DNA from: a virus
IMG/VR virus record: IMGVR_UViG_3300027870_000353
Location: 1 to 39,779 of that record
Length of the DNA stretch: 39,779 nt
Strand: one strand, 5' to 3'
Part shown: positions 8,667 through 39,779 of the stretch, piece after piece
Layout of the letters: each line of letters opens with the position of its first letter
How positions within the stretch are numbered: position 1 is the stretch's first letter
Notes under the pieces: generated by a model
Told to the model about the DNA's origin: nothing
Databases searched by the model: none
Seen by the model: only the letters and a program-made list of their open reading frames with translations
Translations under genes and position numbers: made by a program

Positions 8667-8867
8667 ATGACAATACACACCGCCCCGCCTCACGTTACAC
8701 CCCGCGAACCAATCGCGCCACGCGTTACGACCAGGAAAACGCCTGTCGAATGCACTTGCCCGCCTGAAGGGCAAGTTTTCCGTCGCGATAAAGTGAGCTG
8801 CCGCCAGCACTACGAAGGCATGCTGACGCAGCAGTTGAATGAGGCCGGTGCGCATGGCCACGCTTGA
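8667..8867 (+). CDS. Small Cys-containing hypothetical protein
   Basis: A 66-aa protein with a Pro/Arg-rich N-terminus, a CTCPPEG segment and a later C/H pair (SCRQHYEGM), which could bind a metal. It overlaps the start of the primase gene by 14 bases. The ribosome binding site is weak. No family is recognised; such small genes often precede phage primases. Confidence 0.5.
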   Translation: MTIHTAPPHVTPREPIAPRVTTRKTPVECTCPPEGQVFRRDKVSCRQHYEGMLTQQLNEAGAHGHA

Positions 8868-11571
8868 CCAAGTTGTCGAGCAGATGGCCGCCCACGGCCT
8901 GCCGCAGTTGCCGCACGGTCATCCTGTGCTCGATGGCAAGATCCACCGGTTCGGTCCAGGCAAGAAAGCGTGGTACGTGCTCCGCGAGCTGGACCTAAAT
9001 TCCGGGCGGCGTGTAGTCACTGGTGCCTTCGGCTTGTGGCAGGGGCAAAGCCAGAATGCCATCCCGGTAAAGCTGGACTGGGATGGCGTATCGAGTGAGG
9101 AGCGCGCCGAATTTGAGCGCAAGCAGAAGGCCTTCGAAGAAAAGGAAGCGGAGAAGCGCGCCCGGCAGGCTGAGATGGCAGCGAACCGCGCCAGAATGCA
9201 GTGGTCTGCCGGGGTCTCGCTGGAGACTGGCACCGACTCTCCGTACCTCACTCGCAAGCAAGTCGCGGCCGAGGGCTTACGCTGCCAGCCTGACGGCACC
9301 ATCCTCATTCCCATGAAGAAATACACGTCGACTGGCGCCATGCTGGTCGGCTTACAGAAGATCGCCCCTGACGGCAGCAAACGCTACAGCAGCGGCATGG
9401 ACAAGATCGGTGCCGGCTACCTGCTTGGGAAGATCGCCCCTGACACCATGGTAATCGGCATGGGGGAAGGATATGCGACGGGGGCTACCGTGCGTATGGC
9501 CGATGGGTACATGACGCCGATCATGCTGGCGTTCGATGCGGGCAGCTTGCTTGCTGTGGCGCGCCAGCTTCGCGCCGATTTTCCGCTGGCGCACATCCTG
9601 TTCTTTGCTGACGATGATAACTTTGCGGCAGCCAGGCTTACCGAATACCTGGCAAGCGAGTTCAAAGTCAGCACGCCTGTGCATATCGATGGCATCGAGC
9701 AGCAGCTGGTGGCGCTCGATGGCAGCGCAGTAAAGGTGATCGCTACCTGGCGCACGGATTCGAACGGTACGCCGTTTATCGAAGCTGACATTCGCTGTGG
9801 CCGCCTCATGCGGATCACAAAATTTGAGAACGCCGGCATCGCTAAGGCCAGGGCCGCTGCTCGCGCTGTTGGCAATGCTTCCGTGGTCGTGCCTTCCTTC
9901 GCTGCTCGTGGTGAGAATCGCTGGTCCGACTTCAACGATCTGCACGTGAACGAATCGCTTCAGGTGGTACAGGATCAGGTCCGCACCGCTATCGCCGCAG
10001 CGCGCAGCGCGGCCCCTGGTGATGCGGCTCCCTGGCCTGTCGATGCAGCGCCACCGTCTCCCGCACCCTCTATCGCAGGAGAACCGGCCACGGATGTGAC
10101 GCCACCCAGTGCAGAGATTTTGCTGGCCCACTTTGCTCTGGTCTACGGTACGACGGATGTGTGGGATGGTCTGCGCAAGCAAAAGCTCAAGCGTTCGGCC
10201 TTTCACGCCGCTGTAGGCAAAGCCGCAGCGACGGCATGGGAGGCCGATCCAAGGCACCGGATCGTGACGCCTGAGACCTTGCCTTCGCTGATTCGCGGCC
10301 GCGCCGTCGGTCCGGGGGGCGGGGGGAGGCTCACCGAGATGCTCGACCAGCTGACGCTGCTGCGCGGTACCGAAACTGTATGGGACGGCATTGGCCACCA
10401 GGTGATGTCCCTGGGCGCCGTGCGCGCCGACTATACCGCCGAGCTGACGGGCAAGTGGCAAGAGCACGCCCTGCGCAAGACCATCGAGGCCAAGAATCTG
10501 GTATTCGATCCCACTCAGCAGGCCGATCCTGAGACGCACGTCAATATTTTCCTCGGCTGGCCCTTGGTGCCGAAAGCTGACATTGACCTTGTGACCCCAA
10601 TCTTGGCTTTGCTTGAGTCGCTATGCGCTGGCGAGGACAACGTCGACGAGTGCGTCGTCTGGATCCTGCGCTGGTTGGCCTATCCGCTGCAACACCCGGG
10701 CGCCAAGATGCAAACCGCGCTCCTGATGTTTGGCGAAAAGCAGGGCACCGGCAAGAGCCTGTTCTTCCAGGATGTGATCTCCCCGATCTATGGCGACTAT
10801 GGCACTGTGGCCAGTCAGCACCAGCTGGACTCCAGCTTTACTGCATGGCGCTCGCGCAAGCTGTTCGTGCTGTTTGAAGAGGTGCTATCGCGGGATGATA
10901 AGTACAGCCATAACGGCACGCTCAAGTACATGGTCACGGGCAAGTCCATGAGCATCAACCAGAAGAACTTGCCAGAGCGGGAAGAGCGCAACCACATGAA
11001 CGCCGCTTTCCTCTCGAACGAGCCTCAGCCCATCCCGCTCGAGCTGGAAGACCGCCGCTTCATGGTGATCGAGGCCCGCAACAAGCGAGACCCAGACTTC
11101 TACCGGGCTGTCACAGAATCGATTGCACGCGGTGGCATCGAGGCCTTCTACCACTTCCTGCTCAACTTCCCGCTGGATGATTTCACGGAACACAGCAAGC
11201 CCATCATGACGCTGGCGAAAGAGCGGGTTATTGAGTTCGGTCTGAACGGCTGGATGTCGTTCCACCGGGCCTGGAAGGACGGCTATCTTACCGCACCGTA
11301 CTGCTCTTGTCTCAGCGAGGACCTGTACATCATGTATCGACGCTGGTGCGACAAGAGCGGCGAAAAGCCCCTGACTCTCTGCAAGTTCGCTGGCCTGATC
11401 GGCAGCCGCGAGACGAAGACAAAAAAGAGCGTCGAGGTGGGCAAGAAAAAGAAGGCCACCAGGATGGTATTCATCATCGATAACCCTGACCACACTTCAT
11501 CGCTGGATGAGCAAATTAATACTTTTCGAGATCTGGCCGACGTCCGGGCGGATGGTGCATTGCACGGTTGA
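8854..11571 (+). CDS. Phage primase-helicase (Toprim plus DUF5906-type helicase)
   Basis: A 905-aa replication protein with two parts. The first has a Toprim domain with the acidic motifs GEGYATG (about residue 203) and FFADDDN (about 250), preceded by a long charged helix near 75-110. The second is an SF3-like helicase with Walker A GEKQGTGKS (about 627-635), Walker B-like LFVLFEE and an FLSNEPQPIPLELEDRRF segment typical of DUF5906 helicases. It would open the origin and prime phage DNA synthesis. The start at 8854 has GAGGCCGG upstream. A Pro-rich linker at about 385-415 joins the halves. GCAGGG repeats begin right after the stop. Confidence 0.93.
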   Translation: MATLDQVVEQMAAHGLPQLPHGHPVLDGKIHRFGPGKKAWYVLRELDLNSGRRVVTGAFGLWQGQSQNAIPVKLDWDGVSSEERAEFERKQKAFEEKEAEKRARQAEMAANRARMQWSAGVSLETGTDSPYLTRKQVAAEGLRCQPDGTILIPMKKYTSTGAMLVGLQKIAPDGSKRYSSGMDKIGAGYLLGKIAPDTMVIGMGEGYATGATVRMADGYMTPIMLAFDAGSLLAVARQLRADFPLAHILFFADDDNFAAARLTEYLASEFKVSTPVHIDGIEQQLVALDGSAVKVIATWRTDSNGTPFIEADIRCGRLMRITKFENAGIAKARAAARAVGNASVVVPSFAARGENRWSDFNDLHVNESLQVVQDQVRTAIAAARSAAPGDAAPWPVDAAPPSPAPSIAGEPATDVTPPSAEILLAHFALVYGTTDVWDGLRKQKLKRSAFHAAVGKAAATAWEADPRHRIVTPETLPSLIRGRAVGPGGGGRLTEMLDQLTLLRGTETVWDGIGHQVMSLGAVRADYTAELTGKWQEHALRKTIEAKNLVFDPTQQADPETHVNIFLGWPLVPKADIDLVTPILALLESLCAGEDNVDECVVWILRWLAYPLQHPGAKMQTALLMFGEKQGTGKSLFFQDVISPIYGDYGTVASQHQLDSSFTAWRSRKLFVLFEEVLSRDDKYSHNGTLKYMVTGKSMSINQKNLPEREERNHMNAAFLSNEPQPIPLELEDRRFMVIEARNKRDPDFYRAVTESIARGGIEAFYHFLLNFPLDDFTEHSKPIMTLAKERVIEFGLNGWMSFHRAWKDGYLTAPYCSCLSEDLYIMYRRWCDKSGEKPLTLCKFAGLIGSRETKTKKSVEVGKKKKATRMVFIIDNPDHTSSLDEQINTFRDLADVRADGALHG

Positions 11572-35341: not shown

Positions 35342-35629
35342 ATGTCCACTCCGCATCCTCAAAGGATTATTGACTTGCAACTACCTCTGCCCTGGCTTTT
35401 GTCCTCATTCGTTGCTGTCATGACGGCCCTTTGCGTTATGACTTGGAGTATTGCCGGCCAGTCGAACAAGTTGGATCAGCTGATTGCAAATACATCGAAA
35501 TTGGAGAAACGCGTCGACGAGCGCGACACTCGCACCGATAGCATCAAGGAAAACCAGTACGAAATGCGGCGCGTGCAGGATTCCCACGCCATGCGTCTGG
35601 AAGCGCTCGAGCGGAGCATTCGGAAATGA
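35342..35629 (+). CDS. Small membrane protein with coiled-coil tail
   Basis: A 95-aa protein with one membrane helix (about 17-39, LPWLLSSFVAVMTALCVMTWSIAG) and a charged coiled-coil tail (NTSKLEKRVDERDTRTDSIKENQYEMRRVQDS). The place before the endolysin suggests a role in lysis or lysis control. It overlaps the endolysin start as ATGA. No family is recognised; it is not a classic holin because of the long soluble coiled coil. Confidence 0.62.
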   Translation: MSTPHPQRIIDLQLPLPWLLSSFVAVMTALCVMTWSIAGQSNKLDQLIANTSKLEKRVDERDTRTDSIKENQYEMRRVQDSHAMRLEALERSIRK

Positions 35630-36009
35630 CCTATTCACTGTCCGACCGCAGCAAGCAGCGCCTGGTCGGGGTGCATGCGGATCTGGTGCGCGTCGTCGCG
35701 CGCGCGCTGGAACTGTCGGAGGTCGACTTCGCTGTGCTTGAGGGTTTGCGCACGCCAGCGCGCCAGGCTGAGCTGGTCAAGGCCGGCGCGTCGCAGACCA
35801 TGCGCAGCCGTCACTTGACCGGCCACGCGGTCGACCTGGGTGCGTTTGTCGCCGGGTCGATTCGCTGGGACTGGCCGCTGTACGGCAAGATCGCCGCGGC
35901 CATGAAGCGCGCCGCCGGCGAACTTGGGGTCGAGCTCGAATGGGGTGGCGACTGGCGCACGTTGAAGGACGGCCCGCACTTCCAGCTCACATGGAAAGCA
36001 TACCCATGA
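35626..36009 (+). CDS. Endolysin, M15-type D-Ala-D-Ala/L-Ala-D-Glu peptidase
   Basis: A 127-aa zinc peptidase of the phage T5 endolysin/VanY M15 class. The zinc ligands are in SRHLTGHAVDL (H and D) and DGPHFQL (H), and the catalytic acid is in the WGGDW region. It cuts peptidoglycan cross-links at lysis. There is no signal peptide, so it needs the holin. It overlaps the next gene's ATG by four bases. Confidence 0.93.
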   Translation: MTYSLSDRSKQRLVGVHADLVRVVARALELSEVDFAVLEGLRTPARQAELVKAGASQTMRSRHLTGHAVDLGAFVAGSIRWDWPLYGKIAAAMKRAAGELGVELEWGGDWRTLKDGPHFQLTWKAYP

Positions 36010-36374
36010 TGATCTGGGCGACCCACGGCGCTGCTCTTTTTGTCGGGTTCGTTCTGGGTCTGGTCGTTTTCGCCTACCTGCTGGCCCTGATGCAGGCCGA
36101 CTTAAACCAAACTTTTACCACCTCACCCGAAAGGATCACCATGCCACGCAAGCGCAAGTTTCAACTCGTTGACGGATGGCGTAACGCCTGGCGCTGGATC
36201 AGCGTCAACTGCATGGCCGGCGCCGTCGCCGTCCAGGTTACCTGGGCCTCGCTCGACGCCGAACAGCGGGCGGCCCTGCCGTCATACTCGGCGACGGTCG
36301 TCACGGTCGTACTCCTGGTGCTGGGCATCATTGGCAGGATGACGAAGCAGAAAGAGACGGACAAGGCGCCATGA
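36006..36374 (+). CDS. Holin with two in-frame starts (long form)
   Basis: The frame opens at ATG 36006, coupled to the endolysin stop (ATGA), and runs 122 aa. A second ATG at 36141 with AAAGGA upstream begins a 77-aa protein (MPRKRKFQLVDGWRNAWRW...) that by itself is a typical small phage holin with two membrane helices. The long form adds a third, N-terminal hydrophobic helix (ALFVGFVLGLVVFAYLLAL, about residues 8-28) and a linker. No stop separates the parts. The long form may act as an antiholin, or the upstream part may be a fused small membrane gene. The short form is the safer holin call. Confidence 0.7.
   Translation: MMIWATHGAALFVGFVLGLVVFAYLLALMQADLNQTFTTSPERITMPRKRKFQLVDGWRNAWRWISVNCMAGAVAVQVTWASLDAEQRAALPSYSATVVTVVLLVLGIIGRMTKQKETDKAP
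36141..36374 (+). CDS. Holin, short form
   Basis: A 77-aa protein from ATG 36141. Two membrane segments are predicted: about 21-35 (SVNCMAGAVAVQVTW) and about 51-67 (SATVVTVVLLVLGIIG). The basic C-terminus (RMTKQKET) points into the cytoplasm. It would make the membrane lesion that frees the M15 endolysin. This is the same frame as the entry at 36006. Confidence 0.75.
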   Translation: MPRKRKFQLVDGWRNAWRWISVNCMAGAVAVQVTWASLDAEQRAALPSYSATVVTVVLLVLGIIGRMTKQKETDKAP

Positions 36375-36751
36375 CACCGCTCTTGATCGCGCCGCTGCGC
36401 GCGCTAGTCGGCGCCGTCTTGCTTCTGGCCGTTGGTGCAGGGGCCGGCTGGACTGTGAACGGCTGGCGCCTGCAGTCGGCTCTATCTGAGGAGCGGGCCG
36501 CGCGCGCGGACGAGAAGGCTGTACAGGCGGTGGAGGCAACTTTGACCTTGCACGCGGACGCCCAGGCCATCAACAGGGCGGCCAGCGATGTTCTGGCGGC
36601 CCAGCGGGCAATGGCGCCCAAGTTCGAACAATTCCAGAAGGCACTAAAAAATGCGAAACCACTCCCTCGTGATTGCCGCCCTGATGATCTCCGGGTGCGC
36701 ACCCTTGAAGCCGGTATTGACGCTGCCAACGCGGCCGCCGCTGGACACTAG
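36371..36751 (+). CDS. Rz: Inner-membrane spanin (Rz-like)
   Basis: A 126-aa i-spanin with an N-terminal membrane helix (about 8-28, LRALVGAVLLLAVGAGAGWTV), a periplasmic coiled coil (about 35-95) and a CRPDDLRVRTLEAGI end typical of Rz. It overlaps the holin (ATGA) and contains the start of Rz1 in another frame. Confidence 0.88.
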   Translation: MTPLLIAPLRALVGAVLLLAVGAGAGWTVNGWRLQSALSEERAARADEKAVQAVEATLTLHADAQAINRAASDVLAAQRAMAPKFEQFQKALKNAKPLPRDCRPDDLRVRTLEAGIDAANAAAAGH

Positions 36752-36893
36752 CCTCGCGGCGCCATGCGCGCCGATGGGCCGGCCAGCGGCCGCGGACTAT
36801 GACGAGTGGTTGGTCTGGTCGCTGGATCTGATGCAGAAATACAGCACGTGCGCGGTGCGGCATGCCAAAACGGTCGAGGCTTGGCCGAAATGA
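36651..36893 (+). CDS. Rz1: Outer-membrane spanin lipoprotein (Rz1-like)
   Basis: An 80-aa o-spanin that begins within Rz in another frame and extends 142 bases past its end. It has a lipoprotein signal with lipobox MISGC (Cys16) and a Pro-rich start of the mature part (LTLPTRPPLD). It pairs with Rz to fuse the two membranes at lysis. Its last 17 codons recur, diverged, at 37470-37520. Confidence 0.87.
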   Translation: MRNHSLVIAALMISGCAPLKPVLTLPTRPPLDTSLAAPCAPMGRPAAADYDEWLVWSLDLMQKYSTCAVRHAKTVEAWPK

Positions 36894-36943
36894 TCATGTA
36901 GCGATAACTGGGCGGAACACGGGACAATTCGTGGGTATCGGCT

Positions 36944-36971
36944 TTGTTACTGCTGATTTCATTTGTACAAT
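36944..36971 (+). promoter_or_regulatory. Promoter of the XRE regulator gene
   Basis: TTGTTA (36944-36949), a 16-base spacer and TACAAT (36966-36971, 5/6 to consensus). It lies outside the lysis operon and would start near 36978, making the downstream gene expressible in the lysogen. Confidence 0.6.
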
Positions 36972-37002
36972 GGGCCTCCGATGATATCCGTGTGAAGTGA
37001 TT

Positions 37003-37410
37003 ATGAAAATGAAAGATGAGACGAAACCGTTTGCTTCGGGACTGACTGCTTTTCAAGCTCGACTACACGAGGCCATTCGTGACGCGCGATTGTCGCTCAG
37101 TCCAACCGCGTTCACGGAGGAGTTCAATTTGAGAACTCAGCAGAAAAAAGTCACTGTTCACGCGGTCCGAAAGTGGTTGGTTGGTGATTCCTACCCTGTC
37201 CAGGAGCGTCTAACAGAAGTTGCGCGGATGCTAAATGTCTCGCCGCAGTGGCTTAGATATGGCGAATCTGGGACGCAGCCAGAAAGCGAGACTCGAGGTC
37301 GGATCCCACATGAGGAAGTACTACTCTTGGCCGACTACAGGAAACTCAATCCTGGCTCTAAGATAGCTGTGCGCGATCTCATCAAATCGCTTTTGAGAAA
37401 CGGCAACTAA
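37003..37410 (+). CDS. XRE-type helix-turn-helix regulator, lysogenic cargo
   Basis: A 135-aa protein. The N-terminal 75 residues form a helix-turn-helix (AFQARLHEAIRDARLS, then KKVTVHAVRKWLVGDSYPVQERL, and LTEVARMLNVSPQWLRYG). The C-terminal part (about 95-130) is a helix that may dimerise. It resembles a regulator type common after the lysis genes of Burkholderiales prophages. It has its own promoter and is flanked by the end of Rz1 and a diverged copy of that end, so it was probably inserted as a unit. Its target is unknown. Confidence 0.82.
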   Translation: MKMKDETKPFASGLTAFQARLHEAIRDARLSLSPTAFTEEFNLRTQQKKVTVHAVRKWLVGDSYPVQERLTEVARMLNVSPQWLRYGESGTQPESETRGRIPHEEVLLLADYRKLNPGSKIAVRDLIKSLLRNGN

Positions 37411-37665
37411 ATATCTGTACTCGATTCTTTGCCGGCCAAGCTTGAGGATCCTATTGAAGTTGGCAACATAGCACGTGCGCAGTGCGGCATGCCAAAACCG
37501 CCGAGGCTTGGACGAAGTGATTTCGGCGAAGCCTTAGCAAAAGCTGAGGTAAGTCGAGGGTACGCGAAGCGCCCCAGTTCGAGTTTGGTTCGGCCGCCGA
37601 TCGCACGTTAAGGGCACAAATTTTAGCAGTCTGTTTAAGTAGGGCGTCGGCTTTGCCTAACAAGT
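37411..37665. other. Gap with Rz1 remnant
   Basis: No gene is supported in this 255-base stretch. A 51-base segment at 37470-37520 is a diverged copy of the Rz1 3' end. After about 37600 the base composition turns AT-rich, which may mark the end of the phage core genome. No att core could be matched because the left end is outside the window. Confidence 0.6.
37470..37520 (+). pseudogene. Remnant of a second Rz1 3' end
   Basis: Compared with 36843-36893 it matches at 46 of 51 positions with no gap. Read in the Rz1 frame it encodes STCAVRHAKTAEAWTK followed by TGA. Similarity stops sharply on both sides. It is a relic left when the regulator cassette was joined between two related phage ends. 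Confidence 0.85.
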
Positions 37666-38445
37666 TTACTTCTTATCGCGCGCTTCGATCCCGTCCCTCT
37701 TGTCTTTAGGTAATTTCAAATATGTCTCGTTCACTGATCTTGGATGAGAAATCATTTGCTCCGCAATACTATTAACTAAGGTAAATAGTTGAATTGCGAG
37801 GGGTCGATCGTCATTCAAGTCAATCGATCCAGGGTGAACCGCCTCGTTGCCGACAACACGGACTATATCCAACGATTTTTGTATTAAGGGGTTTAGCCCT
37901 TTACTGACTAAACTCTTAATATCCTTGTCGATATTTTTTCCGGATTCTCCTAGATGAACGCAGAGCTTTTGAATGCCTAGTCTCAGTAGAGCTGCTGCAC
38001 CTCTGGGAGATAGATCAACTATGCTCCGCGCTTCGTCGAAGTCGTGCTTGACGTCGTCAGGTAAGTCAACATTCGGAAGTACCGGCAGCTGGACCGGAGG
38101 GTAAATTATTGAATCGTCAACCCATAGAGCGATTTCTCTACATGCATAGCATTGTGACGCGTGCAGAAGATTAAATCGAAAGCCCCACGAACTTTCCCCT
38201 TTCTTGCCAAGGTATATGCGCCCAAGTTGTTGTTTGCTCAGGATATCAAGCAAGACTTCCCTTTCCTCCTTGGGGATTTCAGAGGAATTTTATATGCGCT
38301 GTCGAGCGTCCGGATCAATTCGATAGGGGACATCTTGTGAGCCGCTGACTGTTGAGCCATTTAGCTCATACCAGGTCTGCGAGGCGAACGCTCCGCAATG
38401 TGGGCAAGAGAATGAATTGCTTTCAATACTGGCGGGTGCGCGCAT
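37666..38445 (-). pseudogene. DUF4145-type protein split by an in-frame TAA
   Basis: From ATG 38445 the frame runs 51 codons with a zinc-knuckle start CPHCGAFASQTWYEL, to a TAA at 38290-38292. The same frame continues after the stop (NSSEIPKEEREVLLDIL) to 37666 with a second Cys pair (CYACREIALWVDD) and a C-terminal DUF4145 domain (SPRGAAALLRLGIQKLCVHLGESGKNID, GNEAVHPGSIDL). The two parts together look like one protein of about 259 aa. Reinitiation at a TTG (38253) after AAGGAGG is possible. DUF4145 is found in defence-related genes, but its action is unknown. The gene is probably inactivated, or two parts are made. Confidence 0.72.
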
Positions 38446-38598
38446 GTTTTTGATGGGTGTATAGGGACTAGTGCCGAAATGGATTGTTCATTCTAAGCGA
38501 AAGTTAGGCGTGTGGACGCCTGCACTTGCGTAGGTTTTGGCATAACTTTGGCTTGAGGGTTGCACCCTCTATTTGAGGAACCCCCTATTCTGGAGGCG
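38446..38598. other. Gap between the DUF4145 gene and the unknown pair
   Basis: It is AT-rich. It holds a short perfect hairpin GAGGGT/ACCCTC (38555-38569, loop TGC) with no T-run, just downstream of the 38599 stop on the minus strand; it may be a weak 3' end structure. No gene is seen. Confidence 0.4.
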
Positions 38599-39177
38599 TT
38601 ATTCCCTAAGTTCTTCCAATGAACGTAGGTTGCCTTTCGCAAGTTCATAAAGACTATACCGCACATTGCGCGCCTGAATTTTGCTCTTTGATTCTATGCC
38701 GCCTTGGCAAATTTCGGCATGGGTAATGTCGTCCGCGTCGGCGGTATCAAAAACAAACAAGCCCCGCGCGCCGGTTTCCTTGCAAACAATTTTTCGTATG
38801 TCACGAACGGAGAAAGGTACAAAACCCCAAAGCTTTCGTTGGGGTTTATCGGGCGAGTTGCGATTGTACTCATGCGCCCTCGCTTCGCCTTTTTGCGTAA
38901 GCTCGGCAAGGGTAGAGTAGGCAAACCGATTTGTGGAAAGTCCATGGGAGCTGCAGACATCGAAAGCTTTCGGAAGCAGTCCGTCGCCCGTCGGGGAGAT
39001 ATGGGTCGGATCAACTACCTGCTGGTAGATCACTTCATCGTCCTTGACTATGCCGGGTGAATGCTCTGAAGCTGTCTCGGTTTCCCATTGAGCCAAAACG
39101 GGCGATTCCAATTCTTGGAGAAGTTTACACTTCTTATCGTTGTCTTTTTCGGAGTCGAAAAAAGCGCGGCAAGTCAT
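38599..39177 (-). CDS. Unknown protein, second gene of an accessory pair
   Basis: A 192-aa protein. AAAGGAAAAA precedes the ATG. It starts with a Lys/Glu-rich helix, then a segment EVIYQQVVDPTHISPTGDG, a GLSTNRFAYSTLAEL part and an alpha/beta part with FSVRDIRKIV, FVFDTADADDITHAEIC. The layout is like a small family of unknown enzymes or nucleic acid-associated proteins but I cannot name it. It follows its neighbour by eight bases on the minus strand, so the two form one unit. Confidence 0.7.
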   Translation of the reverse strand: MTCRAFFDSEKDNDKKCKLLQELESPVLAQWETETASEHSPGIVKDDEVIYQQVVDPTHISPTGDGLLPKAFDVCSSHGLSTNRFAYSTLAELTQKGEARAHEYNRNSPDKPQRKLWGFVPFSVRDIRKIVCKETGARGLFVFDTADADDITHAEICQGGIESKSKIQARNVRYSLYELAKGNLRSLEELRE

Positions 39178-39185
39178 TTTTTCCT

Positions 39186-39779
39186 TTAAGCGAATTCGAA
39201 ATTTTGCTCAAGGATGCGGCCAATATTTTCTTCATACCAGTTCGAATCGATGTCGTTCACCACAACATCTTCGAGCAATTTGTGCGCATCAGTGGCGCGT
39301 ACGCGGGTATAGACAGATACTGTTGTATCGGAATCGACATCAACATCGATATAGACCCTGTCATTGTCCCAGTACATACCAATGTGTCCTTCAGAATTCC
39401 GCATTAAACCTGGCAAAGGAATGCTGCCGGGTAGCTTTCGTAGAAATTGGTTTGCAATGAGGATATCTTCAATGCGCGAGGGCGTGTCGCCATTGTTAAC
39501 AGCGTCCCCAACTGGCATATAGCTCATCAGCTGTTGGAAGAGTCGTTCTTTTAGAACCTGTGCTGTGACTGGGGCGGCGACTGCTGGCGGTGTTTGCGCC
39601 ATCGCAACCGACTCAATTGCAGACGCCATCGCGGTGACGAAGGTAGTCCTCGGCGCGGACAATTCGACTTGCAGAGTTGAATGAGGATTCGCTGCCTTCG
39701 TGCTGTCTTCCCACTTTGGTCGCTGAGTGCTGGTAGCGAGCGTTACTGTTGCGACCAACGCCATCGTAATTGGGTCCAT
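39186..39779 (-). CDS. Unknown protein, first gene of an accessory pair (touches window edge)
   Basis: The frame opens with an ATG that is the last base triplet of the window, so the true start may lie outside. In the 197 residues seen, the N-terminal hundred are Ala/Thr-rich with a mildly hydrophobic first part. The last hundred form an alpha/beta domain with SEGHIGMYWDNDRVYIDVDV and the DAHKLLEDVVVNDIDSNWYEENI helix. The IGMYWDNDRVYIDVD pattern is one I recall from small unnamed bacterial proteins encoded beside partner genes. No function is supported. Codon use is AT-rich like its partner. Confidence 0.65.
   Translation of the reverse strand: MDPITMALVATVTLATSTQRPKWEDSTKAANPHSTLQVELSAPRTTFVTAMASAIESVAMAQTPPAVAAPVTAQVLKERLFQQLMSYMPVGDAVNNGDTPSRIEDILIANQFLRKLPGSIPLPGLMRNSEGHIGMYWDNDRVYIDVDVDSDTTVSVYTRVRATDAHKLLEDVVVNDIDSNWYEENIGRILEQNFEFA

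Follow-up and report, generated by a model that had tools for sequence, protein, structure and literature searches.

The window analysed here is a stretch of 39,779 nucleotides from an uncultured virus record (IMG/VR IMGVR_UViG_3300027870_000353). It has a tyrosine integrase at its start and a CI/Cro/CII-like control region, then the terminase and portal genes and then the lysis genes. The lysis genes comprise an endolysin (35626-36009), a holin (36141-36374) and two overlapping forward-strand spanin genes. Rz (36371-36751) matches the Rz-like inner-membrane spanins of PHROG 2466 (E = 5.8e-8). Rz1 (36651-36893), an intact outer-membrane spanin gene whose start lies within Rz, matches PHROG 2425 (4.3e-9) and the Rz-like spanins of PHROG 456, while its Pfam LysC match was below the cut-off. 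Rz and Rz1 form the conserved left anchor of a cargo region in which an XRE-type regulator, a stub of Rz1 and three reverse-strand genes follow 3' of Rz1. Across the lysis genes the GC content is 0.65; it drops to 0.50 in the segment with the regulator and is 0.49 at the window end.

The last 51 bases of Rz1 (36843-36893, forward strand) recur on the same strand at 37470-37520, and both copies reach a stop codon. Since 46 of the 51 bases are identical, the repeat reported in an earlier note on this DNA is confirmed. The core lies within an ungapped block of 57 nt (36838-36894 and 37465-37521, 88% identity), which is by far the longest direct repeat within 36000-39779; the chance expectation for such a match in the window is about 3e-16. 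The five core differences are GCG/GCA, ACG/ACC, GTC/GCC (V to A), CCG/ACG (P to T) and AAA/AAG. Three of them are synonymous, which is not above chance for five changes (P = 0.21). The second copy also has the readable frame that had been claimed for it and translates in the Rz1 frame as STCAVRHAKTAEAWTK followed by the stop. It covers just residues 63-80 of Rz1 (HMM match) and has no start codon, so it is a headless Rz1 fragment and not a gene; it also lacks the lipoprotein signal. We refer to it as the Rz1 stub (37465-37521, forward strand). The sequences 3' of the two stops are unrelated to each other.

The segment between the two copies (36894-37464) constitutes the newer cargo layer. Its forward-strand gene starts at GTG 36997 or ATG 37003, ends at 37410 and encodes an XRE/repressor-like regulator of 137 (or 135) amino acids with a match to the transcriptional repressors of PHROG 3037 (8.9e-7); its Pfam HTH_3 match was below the cut-off. 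The earlier note placed this regulator and its promoter between the copies. The regulator ORF is indeed there, whereas the promoter comes down to one weak sigma-70-like match (36944-36971, 9/12) in a region with 2 such sites against 0.6 expected. No forward terminator was found. The older cargo layer or layers (37522-39779) hold a DUF4145 protein gene (37666-38445, reverse strand) and two reverse genes without assigned function. The DUF4145 protein matches nearly the whole PADLOC model of the anti-phage defence system PD-T7-4 (E = 2.5e-71, model positions 39-209 of 211). The gene looks broken, as its frame from ATG 38445 meets an in-frame stop at 38290-38292. The regulator and two of the reverse genes had no matches in viral contigs, and the exact repeat-core pattern was absent from the viral contigs searched.

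Viral contigs supplied 80 loci with Rz1 homologues at 46-61% identity. Further homologues came from Bordetella phages and from bacterial genomes, mainly of Cupriavidus and a second genus of the Burkholderiales; most of these relatives are metagenome contigs. The last 120 nt of all Rz1 genes were searched against the DNA downstream of every Rz1, at 111 loci, some of which are near-copies of one another, so that the counts below are loci and not independent events. We observed 14 same-strand stubs in 11 of the 111 loci (the window, L041, L062, L087, L096, L102, L104 with three, L108, L131, L138 and L147 with two) and no opposite-strand stub downstream of any Rz1. In control segments of the same length taken 700, 1000 and 1400 nt upstream, the same-strand sites numbered 0, 1 and 0. 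Overlaps of 10-22 nt (L088, L106, L110, L117, L149) were used as displaced blocks and left out of the stub count. The check proposed earlier, to look in relatives for other cargo ending in the same remnant, thus yielded 10 further loci, all with the remnant downstream of Rz1 and on the same strand. Phages that lack the regulator carry their stubs at the equivalent place and not at an unrelated one, which had been named as the refuting case.

Several loci with unusual Rz1 tails were set apart. The L057/L066 and L043/L066 matches were dropped as stubs because the Rz1 tail of L066 is itself altered; in this locus 186-bp units are repeated in tandem about 0.5-2.0 kb behind Rz1. L072 is a Cupriavidus prophage with a single degenerate Rz1 tail (8761-8847, minus strand); it was left out since no intact Rz1 of the family was recognised nearby. 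In L062 (G164:C1) a tandem duplication of about 2.4 kb lies behind Rz1; it takes in the Rz1 tail together with a long reverse ORF of internally repetitive sequence.

At seven of the 10 further stub loci (L087, L096, L102, L104, L108, L131, L147) the right flank of the stub adjoins an intact Rz1 elsewhere. The stub and this flank form one block that matches the intact Rz1 and the directly following DNA of other phages: L119, L112 and L148 for L104, L090 for L102 and L108, L118 for L087, L109 for L131, L082 for L147 and L150 for L096. Pairwise alignments gave the same picture. L149 and L090 share 92% identity in the 1.2 kb that end at the Rz1 stop; past the stop L149 has an insert, and its positions +395 to +1316 then match -19 to +902 of L090. 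The same filled/empty pattern was seen for L117/L090, L108/L090, L131/L109 and L087/L118. The filled phages therefore have two copies of part of the Rz1 end, one within the intact gene and the other after the cargo. The empty sites that the earlier note had proposed to look for thus exist in the relatives, and the filled and empty partners align cleanly. The Bordetella phages IFTN2 (L075) and IFTN8 (L076) are 99.4% identical over 6.2 kb to the Rz1 end; their similarity ends within a few bases of this gene's stop, and from there up to different integrases their DNA is wholly different. The DNA to the right of the window's own stub (37521 onward) was not found beside Rz1 in any of the relatives, and phage and plasmid records contained no DNA relative of its Rz1-to-end region except for one weak DUF4145 match.

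In 44 of the 111 loci a block that adjoins Rz1 elsewhere lies displaced from it, the window and L062 being counted by self-match. Three recurring blocks keep a fixed order, namely Rz1|C in L089, Rz1|B|C in L119, Rz1|A|B|C in L090, L118 and L148, and Rz1|X|A|B|C in L087, L088, L096, L106, L110, L117 and L149. Without stubs such nesting could also be read as cargo loss. A stub ahead of a block means that the block once lay beside Rz1 and that the cargo in between is a later arrival, and the layers can be ordered, with the newest cargo adjoining Rz1. In L104 a second Rz1, full-length but broken, and two stubs (8870-9702) lie within 1.5 kb of the intact gene. The right flank of each adjoins Rz1 in a different phage, which gives at least three seams. 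Most layers are single genes, AT-rich relative to the lysis genes in most loci. They encode acyltransferases (L087, L106), a response-regulator receiver (L104), a D12-type adenine methylase (L002), a DUF4760 protein (L088) and unknowns, and most of the cargo we read is not recognisably defence. L096 contains blocks B and C twice in one contig (+1042 to +1956 and +5081 to +5671 from the Rz1 stop), the second copy behind a larger Rz1 remnant; these are perhaps two stacks or two neighbouring prophages.

Relative to the Rz1 stop, most right-hand joins, sought up to +40, fell from -60 to +20 and a few lay as far as -240, and no shared sequence marks them. This scatter argues against a site-specific recombinase and for joins that are illegitimate or use short homology and are retained only where one Rz1 stays intact. 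Phages often resemble each other more closely in the Rz/Rz1 segment (about 0.5-0.6 kb) than in the DNA preceding it, and this segment can therefore act as the homologous anchor of the left exchange.

These results suggest that two cargo layers were stacked behind the lysis cassette of the window by recombination between related phages, a reading to which we assign a probability of roughly 0.78. In the ancestor, the DNA that now starts at 37522 would have come immediately after an older Rz1. This ancestor would have recombined with a related phage carrying an intact Rz1 and then the regulator, with homologous recombination in the conserved Rz/Rz1 block on the left and a right join inside the older Rz1, about 50-57 nt ahead of its stop. 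The incoming Rz1 would have remained intact, while the older copy was reduced to a stub on the far side of the new cargo. In the relatives, repeated entry at the Rz1 stop has moved older cargo outward, and the stubs mark the seams and their order; the right joins would be illegitimate or based on short homology, and retained since one Rz1 stays intact.

The position, the strand, the empty-site partners and the presence of several layers are all seen directly in the relatives. In these Burkholderiales phages the Rz1 stop is a recurrent cargo docking point and the stubs are scars of joins made within an older Rz1. The suggestion of a general docking site made in the earlier note thus holds for the phage family, on the strength of the cargo and stubs in relatives, the empty-site pairs and IFTN2/IFTN8. 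Its second claim, the joining of two related genomes, is borne out for the family; for the window it is the likeliest explanation and falls short of proof. For the window no relative with an empty site was found, and the stub matches the window's own Rz1 best (46/51, the runner-up 38/51), so that we infer its two-genome origin, and a history like that of the relatives, from the relatives.

The closeness of the window stub to its own Rz1 is also what a duplication within one genome would predict. The Rz1 tail would have been copied when the regulator was inserted, by a long target duplication, by template switching or as a tandem duplication with its right part later replaced, and the extra copy would have drifted with no second phage involved. 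The tandem duplication in L062 demonstrates that such an event can leave a stub. However, the homology in the window stops at the stop codon, unlike in L062, and the window is an exception among the stubs. Most of the relatives' stubs are closer to the Rz1 of another phage than to their own, which ranks 2, 59, 37, 28, 9, 13, 5, 5, 6, 14, 67 and 24 of 111 in similarity. The L138 stub is 97% identical to the Rz1 of L108 and 86% to its own, and for an L147 stub the corresponding values are 81% and 65%. This pattern speaks for joins between phages, although a stub could also come to look foreign if the intact Rz1 had been replaced later. In L104 the full-length broken second Rz1 and its flank match L112. 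We regard a duplication in the window as unlikely.

The ends of tRNA and tmRNA genes serve as attachment sites for islands, and the Rz1 tail could in the same way be the attachment site of a site-specific recombinase, with the stub as the second att copy. Cargo does enter at the 3' end of a gene that is kept intact, and several stubs start near -48 to -60. However, Rz1 conservation rises near -55 and biases the starts of local alignments, the joins spread from -240 to beyond the stop, and no recombinase gene was found in the window's newer layer or in the small layers we read. Neither a constant core site nor a cognate recombinase within the element emerged, and we dropped this very improbable reading on the scatter of the joins. 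Chance similarity or an assembly chimaera, conceivable for an uncultured virus record, is next to negligible given the chance expectation, the 5 of 51 differences between copies that a chimaera should have left identical, and the recurrence of the pattern in bacterial genome assemblies such as L041.

Recombination between phages may also use the stubs themselves. As an elaboration that we hold to be speculative and rather improbable, the Rz1-tail repeats (about 20-60 bp) would be short homology arms of each layer as well as scars, and phage or host recombinases would move or delete layers among Rz1-sharing phages, giving an integrase-free cassette array on a lysis gene.

Gain of accessory genes by phages is usually inferred from presence and absence, which leaves gain and loss indistinguishable. 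A stub of the anchor gene gives the direction, since the DNA behind it was once beside Rz1 and the cargo ahead of it came later. In these phages the arrivals can thus be ordered, the join points measured and the requirement for homology tested. The DNA that follows Rz1 is also a convenient region in which to search for new defence or conversion genes in Burkholderiales prophages. In the literature we searched, which covered few subscription papers, there was no report of ordered cargo layers marked by anchor-gene stubs.

Morons, and hotspots that take up different morons at one place, have been described in phages (PMC3029335) and in Burkholderia prophages (PMC2920897). The cargo behind Rz1 is moron-like. 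As with morons and their hotspots, extra genes of differing GC lie between genes that are neighbours in relatives, and one place holds varied cargo. The relatives' layers are located between genes adjacent in related phages; for the window, no relative with an empty site was found for this comparison. The composition is unlike the phage core both in the window layer (0.50 vs 0.65) and in most relatives. The difference from described morons is that a stub of the anchor gene persists at the seams, so that several arrivals can be ordered; we read this as moron accretion whose junction record is unusually legible. Defence hotspots are known from P2-like phages (PMC9122126, PMC9519451) and likewise occupy a small variable interval beside conserved phage genes, and the older layer of the window has a PD-T7-4-like gene. 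However, those hotspots are near cos or between the replication and portal genes, whereas here the site is the Rz1 stop and the cargo is mostly not recognisably defence. Mosaic junctions made by illegitimate recombination (discussed in PMC3029335) are similar in that the joins lie near gene boundaries, share no boundary sequence and keep gene function. Unlike in such junctions, the same boundary is reused here and partial copies of the boundary gene persist.
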